In this document: one piece after another, positions 14,807 to 24,144 of the stretch
Position numbering within the stretch: position 1 is the stretch's first letter
Layout of the letters: every line of letters begins with the position of its first letter
DNA from: Promethearchaeota archaeon
GTDB taxonomy: Archaea; Asgardarchaeota; Lokiarchaeia; Sigynarchaeales; SOKP01
Assembly (NCBI GenBank): GCA_019057775.1
Contig: JAHLWT010000223.1
Coordinates: 1-25,890, forward strand
Direction of reading: 5' to 3'
Length of the DNA: 25,890 bases
Position numbers and translations under genes: made by a program
Notes under the pieces: generated by a model
Seen by the model: the letters and a program-made list of their open reading frames with translations, nothing else
What the model was told of the DNA's origin: nothing
Databases searched by the model: none

Positions 14807-15253
14807 TTATTTTTCAGTTGCACTTTCATACTCTAAAATTTGTTGTAATCTTTCTCTAAGATCTAATCTTATTGCAGACATTCCATAAGTACGGATCCCT
14901 AATTTGCTTTGCACCTTTTTAGCACTCAATGCTCCAGGAAGGTCTTGTTTATTGGCGATTGCAATGCTTTTAGCACTTAAATGCCGTGAAAATTTATCTA
15001 AAATCTCTTTTGTTTTATTTACGTTTTCCTCTGTTGAGTCACACACCAGTACTGTTAATCCAGCTCCTCGCAGAAAATCTTGCCACATGAATTGATACCT
15101 TTCTTGACCCCCAAAATCCCACACGTTGACTTTATTTCCACTAATTATTGAATTCTCAATTTCTAATCCCACTGTTGGATTTTTTTCTTTTGAAATGTCA
15201 CGTCCTTGAAGTAAATTTAATAAAGAAGATTTTCCAACCCTACTTAATCCCAA
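14807..15253 (-). CDS. Arf-type small GTPase, 5' end disrupted
   Basis: Ras-superfamily GTPase nearest to Arf/Sar. P-loop GLSRVGKSS (2-10), switch II WDFGGQERYQFMW, guanine specificity motif ANKQDLPGALSA and a final SAI box. NKQDLPGA and WDxGGQE are Arf-group features. The only in-frame canonical start is a TTG at 15253, immediately before the P-loop, which would delete the first beta strand. The codons just upstream do encode it (KICLL), but that frame meets a TGA before any ATG, GTG or TTG. Removing one A from a run of six at 15262-15267 joins it to an upstream TTG at 15293 and gives LIKSSLDQTKICLLGLSRVG, a normal N-terminus (161 residues in total). No lipidation motif is seen. Confidence 0.85.
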   Translation of the reverse strand: MGLSRVGKSSLLNLLQGRDISKEKNPTVGLEIENSIISGNKVNVWDFGGQERYQFMWQDFLRGAGLTVLVCDSTEENVNKTKEILDKFSRHLSAKSIAIANKQDLPGALSAKKVQSKLGIRTYGMSAIRLDLRERLQQILEYESATEK

Positions 15254-15730: not shown

Positions 15731-17080
15731 TTAGGCTTTCTTGTCTTCGACAATAGATGTACCTACGTCAATATCTTTGACAATGCCGACCGCGACTGTA
15801 CATTGAGTTTAAATGAGAAGCTCATTTAAAAGTCCCATGTCGCGGACAGCGAATCGGCCCATCTCTGGAAAATCATTATATTTTTCAAGGCACATTTTTT
15901 TGATCGGCTGTAGTTCAACAATAGCAGATTCGTTTTTCTTGAGAAACTTTGGAGAATCTTCAATAACAGCACCAGTTTTTTGATCAAGCTTCTTTACTAG
16001 ACTTACAAACTTTGCTGCTACTTGAGCTGTGTGTGCGTGAACTACTGGACAATACCCCTGTGCTAAAGCAGTGGGGTGCCAAATCACTATAATTTGTCCT
16101 GTCCATTTTCCGTTTGGGTTAATAACCTTTGGTGGATCACTTGGGTGTCCTAGACAGTCACCCCGACTAGCATCCTCAATTGTAATACCTCGAATACTGA
16201 AACCAATATTATCTCCTGGGATTGCTTGAGGAATCTCTTCATGATGCATTTCAATCGAGCGAATTTCTCCTTCAAAACCAGTGGGCATAATAATAATTTT
16301 ATCTCCTTTCTTTAAGATACCTGTTTCAACCCTTCCAACAGGAACAACACCAGTTCCTTTAATTTGATAAGAATCTTGAATAGGAATTCTTAAAGGTTTG
16401 CCAGTAGGTTTCTCAGGAAGGACGAATTGATCAATCGCTTCAATTATAGTTGGTCCATCATACCAAGCTAATTTATCACTTTTCTTTGACAAATTATCCA
16501 TGGCCATTCCTGATGTTGGGATATAGTTTACATTTTTGAAACCAATACTCTTAAGTAAATCCCCAACTGCTTGTTTACATTCATTAAAGCGCTCTTCAGA
16601 ATAATCATAGACATCAGCTTTATTGATTGCAACAACAAGTTGTTTTACACCTAAAGTTTGTGCTAAATATGCGTGTTCGCGAGTTTGACCATTTGCAGCG
16701 ATTCCAACTTCCATTTCTCCTTTCTTTCCAGAAACTACTAAGATAGCAGCATCCGCTTGTGAAGCTCCTGTGATCATGTTCTTTACAAAATCAGCATGAC
16801 CTGGAGCATCGATGATTGTGAAATATCTTGATTTAGTTTCAAACTTTCTAAAAGCCAAATCAATTGTAATTCCCCGTGCTCTTTCTTCTTTTAGTCTGTC
16901 AAAGACAAAAGCATATGACCATGAATCTCTATCAAATTCCTTTGCAAGTTTCTCCAATTCACGTGCTTCCCTTTCGGAAACAGCACCAGTTTCGATGAGT
17001 AAGGCACCCATCATTGTCGACTTGCCGTGGTCTATGTGACCGATTACTACAAGATTTAAATGTTCTTTTTCAGAAACCAT
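15731..17080 (-). CDS. tuf: Elongation factor 1-alpha (EF-1A), coding region interrupted by a 30-nt intron-like element
   Basis: EF-1A carries aminoacyl-tRNA to the ribosomal A site as a GTP complex. G1 GHIDHGKST (14-22), G3 DAPGHADFV (91-99), G4 NKAD (153-156), and domains 2 and 3 down to GRFAVRDMG (408-416) are canonical. The uninterrupted frame then gives LLNELLI and a TAA at 15809-15811 (423 residues), an abnormal end. The expected tail TVAVGIVKDIDVGTSIVEDK lies further on in the same frame and ends with KA and a TAA at 15731-15733. Removing 15802-15831 joins GGA-C to GT-ACA and yields RDMGRTVAVGIVKD, the standard EF-1A C-terminus, for 439 residues. Exons are thus 17080-15832 and 15801-15731. 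The downstream exon keeps the C-ending codons of this highly expressed gene, so it is not decaying. Confidence 0.93.
15802..15831 (-). other. putative bulge-helix-bulge intron in EF-1A pre-mRNA
   Basis: On the minus strand 15830-15821 (TTTAAATGAG) pairs perfectly with 15817-15808 (CTCATTTAAA) around a CTT loop. Outside it, UGGG (15837-15834) pairs with CUCA (15807-15804) as a 4-bp helix containing one G-U. A 3-nt bulge lies on each strand: ACU at 15833-15831 and AUG at 15803-15801. Beyond this, CCGCGAC (15845-15839) pairs with GUCGCGG (15796-15790). The exon side forms the 5' half of the central helix, as in archaeal tRNA precursors. Cuts after the second base of each bulge release 30 nt and restore the EF-1A frame and consensus. 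The element contains the in-frame TAA. Confidence 0.8.
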
Positions 17081-23691: not shown

Positions 23692-24046
23692 TTAATCCAA
23701 AAATTCTTGAATTTCTATTGTATAACCATTAGGATCTTTAAAGAAGAAGTGATAAATATTAAATTTATGATTAATTTTAGGCTTCTCTGTAAGATTCAAT
23801 CCTTGCTTCAATTAATCTATTGTAGATTTCATCAACTTCCTCGGCAACAAATGTTAGAATTGGATTTTTATCCTCATGAAGAATTGACATGTGTGAGCAA
23901 AATCCGATTTTGCTTTGAGAGTTTACATTAAATATTAAACAAACTCTTTGATCCTTATAGATTGTTAACCCTAGAATATTTTGATAAAAATCTGAAGTCT
24001 CTTTGAGATCTCTCGCTCCTAAAAATGTAATAAATTCTTTAAACAT
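23692..24046 (-). pseudogene. VOC (glyoxalase-like) family gene with a single-base frameshift
   Basis: The N-terminal part MFKEFITFLGARDLKETSDFYQ (in part) ... NILGLTIYKD ... LTFVAEEVDEIYNRLIEARI is a typical VOC half-module. The frame ends prematurely at ESYREA with a stop at 23777. One base on (dropping the base at 23782), the frame continues as PKINHKFNIYHFFFKDPNGY and TIEIQEFLD, with a TAA at 23692-23694. That is the exact family C-terminus, including the metal-ligand Glu of the YTIEIQ strand. The corrected protein has 117 residues from the ATG at 24046. It is either a recent loss or an assembly error; the tail is otherwise undamaged. Substrate is not predictable. Confidence 0.8.
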
Positions 24047-24144
24047 CATCAAAATCACGAAATAATAATCAATTATGTTAAAAGTTTAGATTACTTTACA
24101 TTCATATAAAAAATTCATATACATTTATCGATAAGATAAAATTT

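Follow-up and report, generated by a model that had tools for sequence, protein, structure and literature searches.

How a complete EF-1A could be made from a gene whose frame stops short of its conserved C-terminus is the question raised by the window (the whole 25,890-nt stretch of DNA analysed here). The gene lies on the minus strand with its start at 17080 and matches the profile TIGR00483 at 579.5 bits (cut-off 540.1). As it stands its frame reads ...EMGRFAVRDMGLLNELLI-stop, with an in-frame TAA at 15809-15811, seven codons past the conserved RDMG, and the same frame then gives TVAVGIVKDIDVGTSIVEDKKA-stop downstream. The original prediction had held that the frame breaks after RDMG, resumes in the same frame, and recovers the EF-1A consensus once 15802-15831 are excised as a bulge-helix-bulge (BHB) intron; re-reading of the minus-strand frame bore this out. 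Removal of these 30 nt yields ...RDMGRTVAVGIVKDIDVGTSIVEDKKA-stop, a full-length EF-1A of 439 aa, and among trial excisions of 10-89 nt with starts near the site a single one restored the consensus, namely the one with BHB geometry. Position, length, frame, geometry and comparison with relatives all support this reading, and we conclude that the 30 nt are very probably a BHB intron of a Lokiarchaeon EF-1A pre-mRNA, one of a recurrent class of ~30-nt Asgard introns whose cutting and joining we infer from sequence.

Among named records, the window's best EF-1A relatives are Lokiarchaeota MAGs, with up to 88% identity, and the best among records of the L001-L033 type align as far as residue 415-416 of the window ORF. 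When the window frames of at least 80 aa were compared with 200-kb stretches of two genomes of the class (G042 and G051), 29 of 37 matched well (at least half covered, 45% identity). Throughout, "the class" is that of G006, the genome containing locus L011 (Lokiarchaeota), represented by 83 genomes that are mostly draft bins.

Anatomy of the interruption in the window EF-1A gene

The features of the locus, all on the minus strand, are as follows.

15832..17080, minus strand: EF-1A (aEF1A, tuf) exon 1, 1249 nt; codons 1-416 and the first base of codon 417 (Arg); TIGR00483
15802..15831, minus strand: putative 30-nt BHB intron, phase 1; in-frame TAA at 15809-15811; no counterpart in P0003-P0005
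15731..15801, minus strand: EF-1A exon 2, 71 nt; remainder of codon 417 to the stop, RTVAVGIVKDIDVGTSIVEDKKA
15834..15837, minus strand: BHB central helix, exon strand UGGG; pairs with 15804-15807 (CUCA), one G-U pair
15804..15807, minus strand: BHB central helix, intron strand CUCA; partner of UGGG 15834-15837
15831..15833, minus strand: 5' bulge ACU; predicted cut 15832/15831, from the BHB rule
15801..15803, minus strand: 3' bulge AUG; predicted cut 15802/15801, from the BHB rule
15808..15830, minus strand: intron hairpin; 10-bp inner helix 15821-15830 / 15808-15817, loop CUU
15839..15845, minus strand: outer helix, 5' strand CCGCGAC (exon 1); partner 15790-15796
15790..15796, minus strand: outer helix, 3' strand GUCGCGG (exon 2); partner 15839-15845
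15797..15799, minus strand: one-sided bulge ACA, which with the lone pair A15838-U15800 separates the outer helix from the BHB

Every structural element claimed originally (the hairpin, the UGGG/CUCA helix, the ACU and AUG bulges, the 7-bp outer helix, the A-U pair and the 3-nt bulge) was found. A 4-bp central helix with two 3-nt bulges on opposite strands is present, and a cut after the second base of each bulge yields the mature sequence, with a junction that agrees with the intronless protein P0003. The outer helix is of a relaxed form, its 7 bp being set off from a single pair at the BHB by a one-sided bulge of 3 nt. The minimum-energy fold of 15770-15860 (-29.1 kcal/mol, z -3.18, with 2 of 200 shuffles as good) contains the inner hairpin and the 4-bp central and 7-bp outer helices without the lone A-U pair, and the centroid structure of the same segment lacks the 4-bp central helix. 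Taken alone, the window's central helix is only moderate evidence for a BHB, because four of four central pairs arise at this fixed boundary with a chance of 0.012 at random gene places and 0.112 when the intron is shuffled; the comparative evidence is stronger.

Other kinds of intervening sequence were considered for the insert. Spliceosomal introns have GT-AG ends, and group I and group II introns have a catalytic core of hundreds of nucleotides; the insert is 30 nt long, starts with UU and ends with AU, which rules out all three. An intein is ruled out by the in-frame stop at 15809-15811 inside the insert. Nor is the insert, which sits in EF-1A, homologous to the intron that Crenarchaeota carry in cbf5 at the codon for the catalytic Asp.

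Comparison with related genes, both with and without the insertion, had been proposed originally, and both kinds exist. P0003 (99% identical, 439 aa) has no insert and reads RDMGRTVAVGIVKDIDVG, the predicted joined sequence, at the site; the 23 residues of exon 2 are identical to it save for one D/E. P0004 and P0005 (97%, 439 aa) likewise lack the insert and read RDMGRTVAVGIVKDIDVG. P0002 (96%, 423 aa) ends in RDMGLLNEILI, one residue off the window's truncated tail. Truncated EF-1A proteins of this kind are present in the protein database: among the best 120 of 7,959 protein relatives, 14 (the window's own included) stop just past RDMG and 106 continue, with three rows that continue RTIAVG counted as uninterrupted. 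Nine different stopped tails occur in this set (LLNELLI, LLNEILI, LLIETLN, SII, RTI, RIA, RIS, SVA and SLS). At the DNA level, 31 of 33 archaeal EF-1A loci (L001-L033) are uninterrupted at the window's site, and L011 carries an unrelated 31-nt insert with BHB geometry in the same codon, one base further on. The contig of L012 (G007, JAGXNU010000012.1) breaks off precisely at the RDMG codon of EF-1A, the site of introns in relatives; a polymorphic intron may have interrupted the assembly there.

We placed these states on a quick EF-1A tree of 73 rows (49 loci and 24 database proteins, the window's included), in which 22 of 67 inner branches are open and the intron states of the database proteins rest on tails alone; L122 was left out of the counts because its contig stops at the site. 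The window's nearest set of five comprises two sequences with the intron and three without. All intron states together need at least 17 changes, a count that cannot separate gain from loss. The distribution of EF-1A introns is, as read from these sequences, patchy even between near-identical alleles.

Recurrent ~30-nt inserts in Asgard core genes

We surveyed EF-1A, EF-2, aIF2-gamma, RNAP A' and RtcB across the class, recognising inserts from stop codons, surplus length or a broken frame and without regard to structure (the window's own excepted). At least one such intron occurs in 36 of the 83 genomes with G081 left out, a lower bound because only odd-looking loci were opened. EF-1A has a match in 73 genomes; for 50 loci both gene ends were read where they lay on the contig and the middle was judged by stop counts and length, and the remaining 23, judged by rows alone, show no inner stop. 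Nine class genomes carry an EF-1A insert, five of them at one site (a slash marks the point of insertion).

HIDHG/K: G039, G045, G056, G059, G062
GH/IDHG: G060
LV/IIG: G050
HAD/FVK: G047
RDMG/R: G006 (L011)

Across the phylum, where EF-1A has matches in at least 202 of 227 genomes, a 30-nt insert at DFI/KNM is present in at least three genomes outside the class (G190, G194 and G212). A loose re-search of the ten class genomes without an EF-1A match found no full EF-1A and one C-terminal fragment (G070); we take most of these absences to be gaps in the bins. One of these searches concerned G049:C1, a single contig of 3,343,605 bases, which in strict and loose searches yielded other translation GTPases and no EF-1A.

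The other genes behave similarly. EF-2 has matches in at least 82 class genomes, and introns are present in 16 of the 17 loci opened because of a stop or an unusual length, the exception being L185; at L182 (G042) a single EF-2 gene holds two separate 30-nt BHB introns. For aIF2-gamma, matched in 76 genomes, a P-loop insert is present in each of the 18 loci opened because of a stop or a truncated start. All four fetched loci of RNAP A' (76 genomes) have inserts, two with four of four and two with three of four central pairs. RtcB, found in 74 genomes, carries a 29-nt intron at GVGYD in L188 (G032) and L189 (G007). Many inserts lie at invariant motifs, chiefly the GTPase P-loop (EF-1A, both EF-2 paralogs and aIF2-gamma), with further hits in the EF-1A G3 region, RNAP GHFGH and RtcB GVGYD. 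Odd rows for EF-2 in G014 and G013, RtcB in G015 and EF-1A in G118 stand outside these counts. The RNAP A' genes of G012:C111, G033:C88 and G076:C31 are split at profile position ~446-454 by ~1.5 kb in one long frame, inserts that look intein-like. No Cbf5 row among the 81 class genomes with a match has an inner stop, and only that of G081 is split. In G081 (L253, L252, L251), which may be a chimeric bin, an intron interrupts Cbf5 at the codon for the catalytic Asp, the position known from Crenarchaeota, and RtcB and EF-2 carry inserts as well.

For structural comparison we used 57 inserts from EF-1A, EF-2, aIF2-gamma, RNAP A', RtcB and Cbf5, the window's included, which are not independent because many share ancestry and which represent ~18 distinct gene/site combinations (table read by eye). 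Six of 63 called inserts had been dropped as short and in frame or as lying in the low-complexity RNAP A' C-terminus. With boundaries taken from the protein alignment, which leaves 1-4 equivalent cuts per insert, four of four central pairs can form in 50 inserts (all Watson-Crick in 26), three in six and none in one, as compared with 2.87 inserts with all four expected from shuffled introns and 2.73 from random places. With G081 left out, the counts are 49 of 54 with four pairs and five of 54 with three; L251 of G081 has no BHB in the geometry used. Most inserts are 29-30 nt long, with 55 of 57 between 29 and 33 nt, one of 50 and one of 65, and in 29 the length is not divisible by three. Codon phases at the BHB cut are 19/36/2, which supersede a count by aligner placement (18/14/25). 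The contiguous outer helix beside the bulges is only 0-4 bp in all 57, the window adding its 7 bp beyond a bulge. By a strict rule the contiguous inner helix falls below 3 bp in 15 inserts, 14 of which hold a stem of at least 4 elsewhere in the intron.

In three sets of EF-2/EF-1A introns, changes on both strands preserve the helices. At the EF-2b site DSD/DEE, 94% of cells are paired versus 28-49% in slid registers; at other EF-2b sites the values are 97% versus 28-48%, and six pairs change on both sides (five sequences from two pooled sites); and at EF-1A DFI/KNM they are 93% versus 23-73% (three sequences). For aIF2-gamma introns 68% are paired versus 33-59% slid, the assumed distal helix being a misfit for that family. 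Likeness between introns of different genes reached 34 and 32 for EF-1A against aIF2-gamma P-loop introns (shuffled 95% level 30, null maximum 34), values that are suggestive only, because the common CCCAT is forced by exon pairing. EF-2a and RtcB introns, at 30, were not above the null level. Intron mobility is supported by the patchy EF-1A pattern and weakly by this cross-gene similarity, and the ~30-nt introns have probably been gained and/or lost many times in Asgard core genes, chiefly translation GTPases.

A pairwise survey of the window and 200 kb of G042 and G051 addressed genes at large. From 475 of 487 ortholog alignments (12 were dropped for length) it returned 24 insertions, and the combination of an interruption, four of four pairs and an inner helix of at least 2 bp occurred only in the window EF-1A, found twice, and in two cases in G042 EF-2, indicating that the introns are concentrated and not spread over the whole genome. 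Three other four-pair calls (63, 24 and 16 nt, with inner helices of 2, 0 and 1) were taken as chance. A de novo BHB scan bridging window frames gave 4 and 5 hits on the two strands versus 4-9 and 4-16 with shifted cuts, no excess; it could not show the window intron because exon 2 is below its 40-codon minimum, and homology-based spliced alignment was used in its place.

Two neighbouring frames in the window also drew attention. At 14807-15253 (minus strand) lies a small Arf-like GTPase gene whose frame begins behind a stop and offers no ATG ahead of the G1 motif. Its orthologs L004, L020, L088, L089, L098, L108, L115 and L116 do likewise, with an in-frame TTG only in L004, L115 and L116, and L003 has an ATG. 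A similar hairpin (CCTTTTCTAATTAA...TTAGAAAGG) lies upstream in the window and several orthologs; an intron was suspected here, and none with a BHB and an upstream ATG was found. At 23777-24058 (minus strand) a 93-aa frame faces a 122-aa ortholog in G051; the spliced aligner proposed a 16-nt gap with an inner helix of 1 bp, and a frameshift or variable end is the more likely cause of the length difference.

Splicing machinery and alternative explanations

A splicing endonuclease and RtcB, which had been named originally as what such an intron calls for, are both present in relatives' genomes. PF01974 (splicing endonuclease) matches in nine of ten genomes searched, with two matches in six of these, and RtcB in the 74 of 83 given above. 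In G006, the alignment of subunit 1 with the solved splicing endonuclease 3p1z_B (E 2e-35) covers query 27-207 and reaches the end of the chain, and the Tyr, His and Lys regions, which we take to hold the catalytic residues, are retained; subunit 2 (best match 1a79) is without the His at the matching place. By sequence the pair has the make-up of a heterotetrameric (alpha-beta)2 endonuclease. Broad substrate specificity is reported for (alpha-beta)2 enzymes, the M. kandleri enzyme being constrained, in one study (PMC6379350).

We propose that UGGG, at the end of exon 1, would pair with CUCA, at the intron's 3' end, to form a helix flanked by two 3-nt bulges, that the archaeal splicing endonuclease (EndA) would cut past the second base of each bulge (15832/15831 and 15802/15801), and that RtcB or another RNA ligase would join the exons into codon CGT (Arg) followed by the last 23 EF-1A residues. 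The 30-nt intron would be set free, possibly in circular form. Translation of mRNA left unspliced would yield an EF-1A that lacks the final 23 residues and has the tail LLNELLI rather than TVAVGIVKDIDVG. Cutting by EndA and joining by RtcB appear to be by far the best explanation for the Asgard inserts generally.

Were the ribosome instead to skip the 30 nt on an unspliced mRNA, as in the translational bypassing of T4 gene 60 and the byp elements of Magnusiomyces mitochondria, no splicing would be needed, and short hairpin inserts in coding frames are byp anatomy too. Those elements stay in the RNA, need matching landing codons and leave codons unsplit; in the matching and splitting of codons the Asgard inserts depart from them. 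A ribosome that lands on a complete triplet could not decode a junction inside a codon, and in 10 of the 57 inserts, including the window's, such a junction is left by each of the cuts that recover the protein, which speaks against bypassing. Where a codon-boundary cut is possible (47 inserts), the take-off and landing codons are the same in none and share their first two bases in two; in the window, GGA is the last codon ahead of the gap and TGT the triplet that precedes ACA, where reading resumes. Nor would a bypassed segment be expected to have BHB geometry, and we consider bypassing extremely unlikely.

A decayed EF-1A, with an intact copy elsewhere, would fit the absence of the insert from near-identical alleles, and the window organism's copy number is read from relatives' genomes only. 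A second intact gene had been named originally as a finding that would tell against the intron; in relatives with an EF-1A intron the expectation of a single gene stood, with one EF-1A match each in nine class and three other Asgard genomes. Exon 2 past the stop still fits the consensus, and similar inserts with BHB structure recur in several core genes, so that decay is very unlikely. That the insert is an assembly or sequencing artefact is scarcely conceivable: the data are of metagenome type and the L012 contig does end exactly at this codon, but a random 30-nt error would lack BHB geometry, independent records (P0002 and P0010) have similar truncated tails, and comparable inserts are found in the 36 class genomes, some of them MAGs of differently named isolates (L001 from G001, L011 from G006).

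Relation to known introns and significance

The nearest known case is the BHB intron of crenarchaeal cbf5 pre-mRNA (Watanabe et al. 2002; Yokobori et al. 2009, PMC2738675), which likewise lies inside a protein gene and is cut between the second and third bulge base. It splits the codon of the catalytic Asp, measures 33, 36 or 39 bp in some species, has been lost in some lineages and is processed by hetero-oligomeric EndA (PMC2738675). Insertion into invariant codons in Asgard parallels this split; whereas the cbf5 system, as described there, comprises one gene and one site in one archaeal group, the Asgard inserts occupy many sites in EF-1A, two EF-2 paralogs, aIF2-gamma, RNAP A' and RtcB. The same source notes predictions for further genes, as well as putative introns of 12 bp in a virus of archaea (PMC2738675). 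In Haloferax, the HVO_1309 mRNA is reportedly cut by EndA at BHB sites in its 5'-UTR (PMC7714728), an untranslated region where the Asgard inserts lie in the coding frame; that 2020 report gives cbf5 mRNA as the only further such archaeal BHB intron. Archaeal tRNA BHB introns are described as abundant in some Asgard genomes (PMC11291895) and as proposed to spread to new sites in Thermoproteales (PMC4090602); they share the motif and presumably the enzymes with the inserts studied here, in tRNA there and in mRNA here. ARAGORN found no tRNA genes in the 400 kb scanned. In the accessible part of the open literature, which leaves out most subscription papers and all preprints, no BHB introns are reported in Asgard protein genes, EF-1A, EF-2 or aIF2-gamma, in agreement with the original remark that none was known in EF-1A.

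The proposed introns often interrupt invariant motifs within a codon. Such positions are expected of elements that persist because their targets are conserved and their imprecise removal kills the host, as is the case for inteins and group I introns. In these genomes the EF-1A, EF-2, aIF2-gamma, RNAP and RtcB genes come out of gene callers truncated or frameshifted, and markers of this type are used to place eukaryotes in the tree. The affected Asgard core genes are mostly single-copy, and, with presence patchy among near-identical alleles, the gain and loss of introns can be tested over short time scales.

Where the RtcB gene itself has an intron (G032, G007), its expression would need RNA ligation, and the pre-mRNA is perhaps joined by its own product, so that RtcB supply would depend on that product. 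Regulation through EndA and RtcB is possible, most strikingly in these genomes. If the introns are spliced, mRNA splicing by tRNA enzymes would be ordinary in close archaeal kin of eukaryotes. A wider picture, plausible and yet one that we hold tentatively and rate somewhat on the doubtful side, is that Asgard archaea harbour a family of mini BHB introns (~30 nt) in mRNA that is still active and mobile and repeatedly re-enters the same invariant codons, so that a routine EndA/RtcB maturation step would gate the supply of the translation machinery as a form of pre-spliceosomal mRNA splicing.
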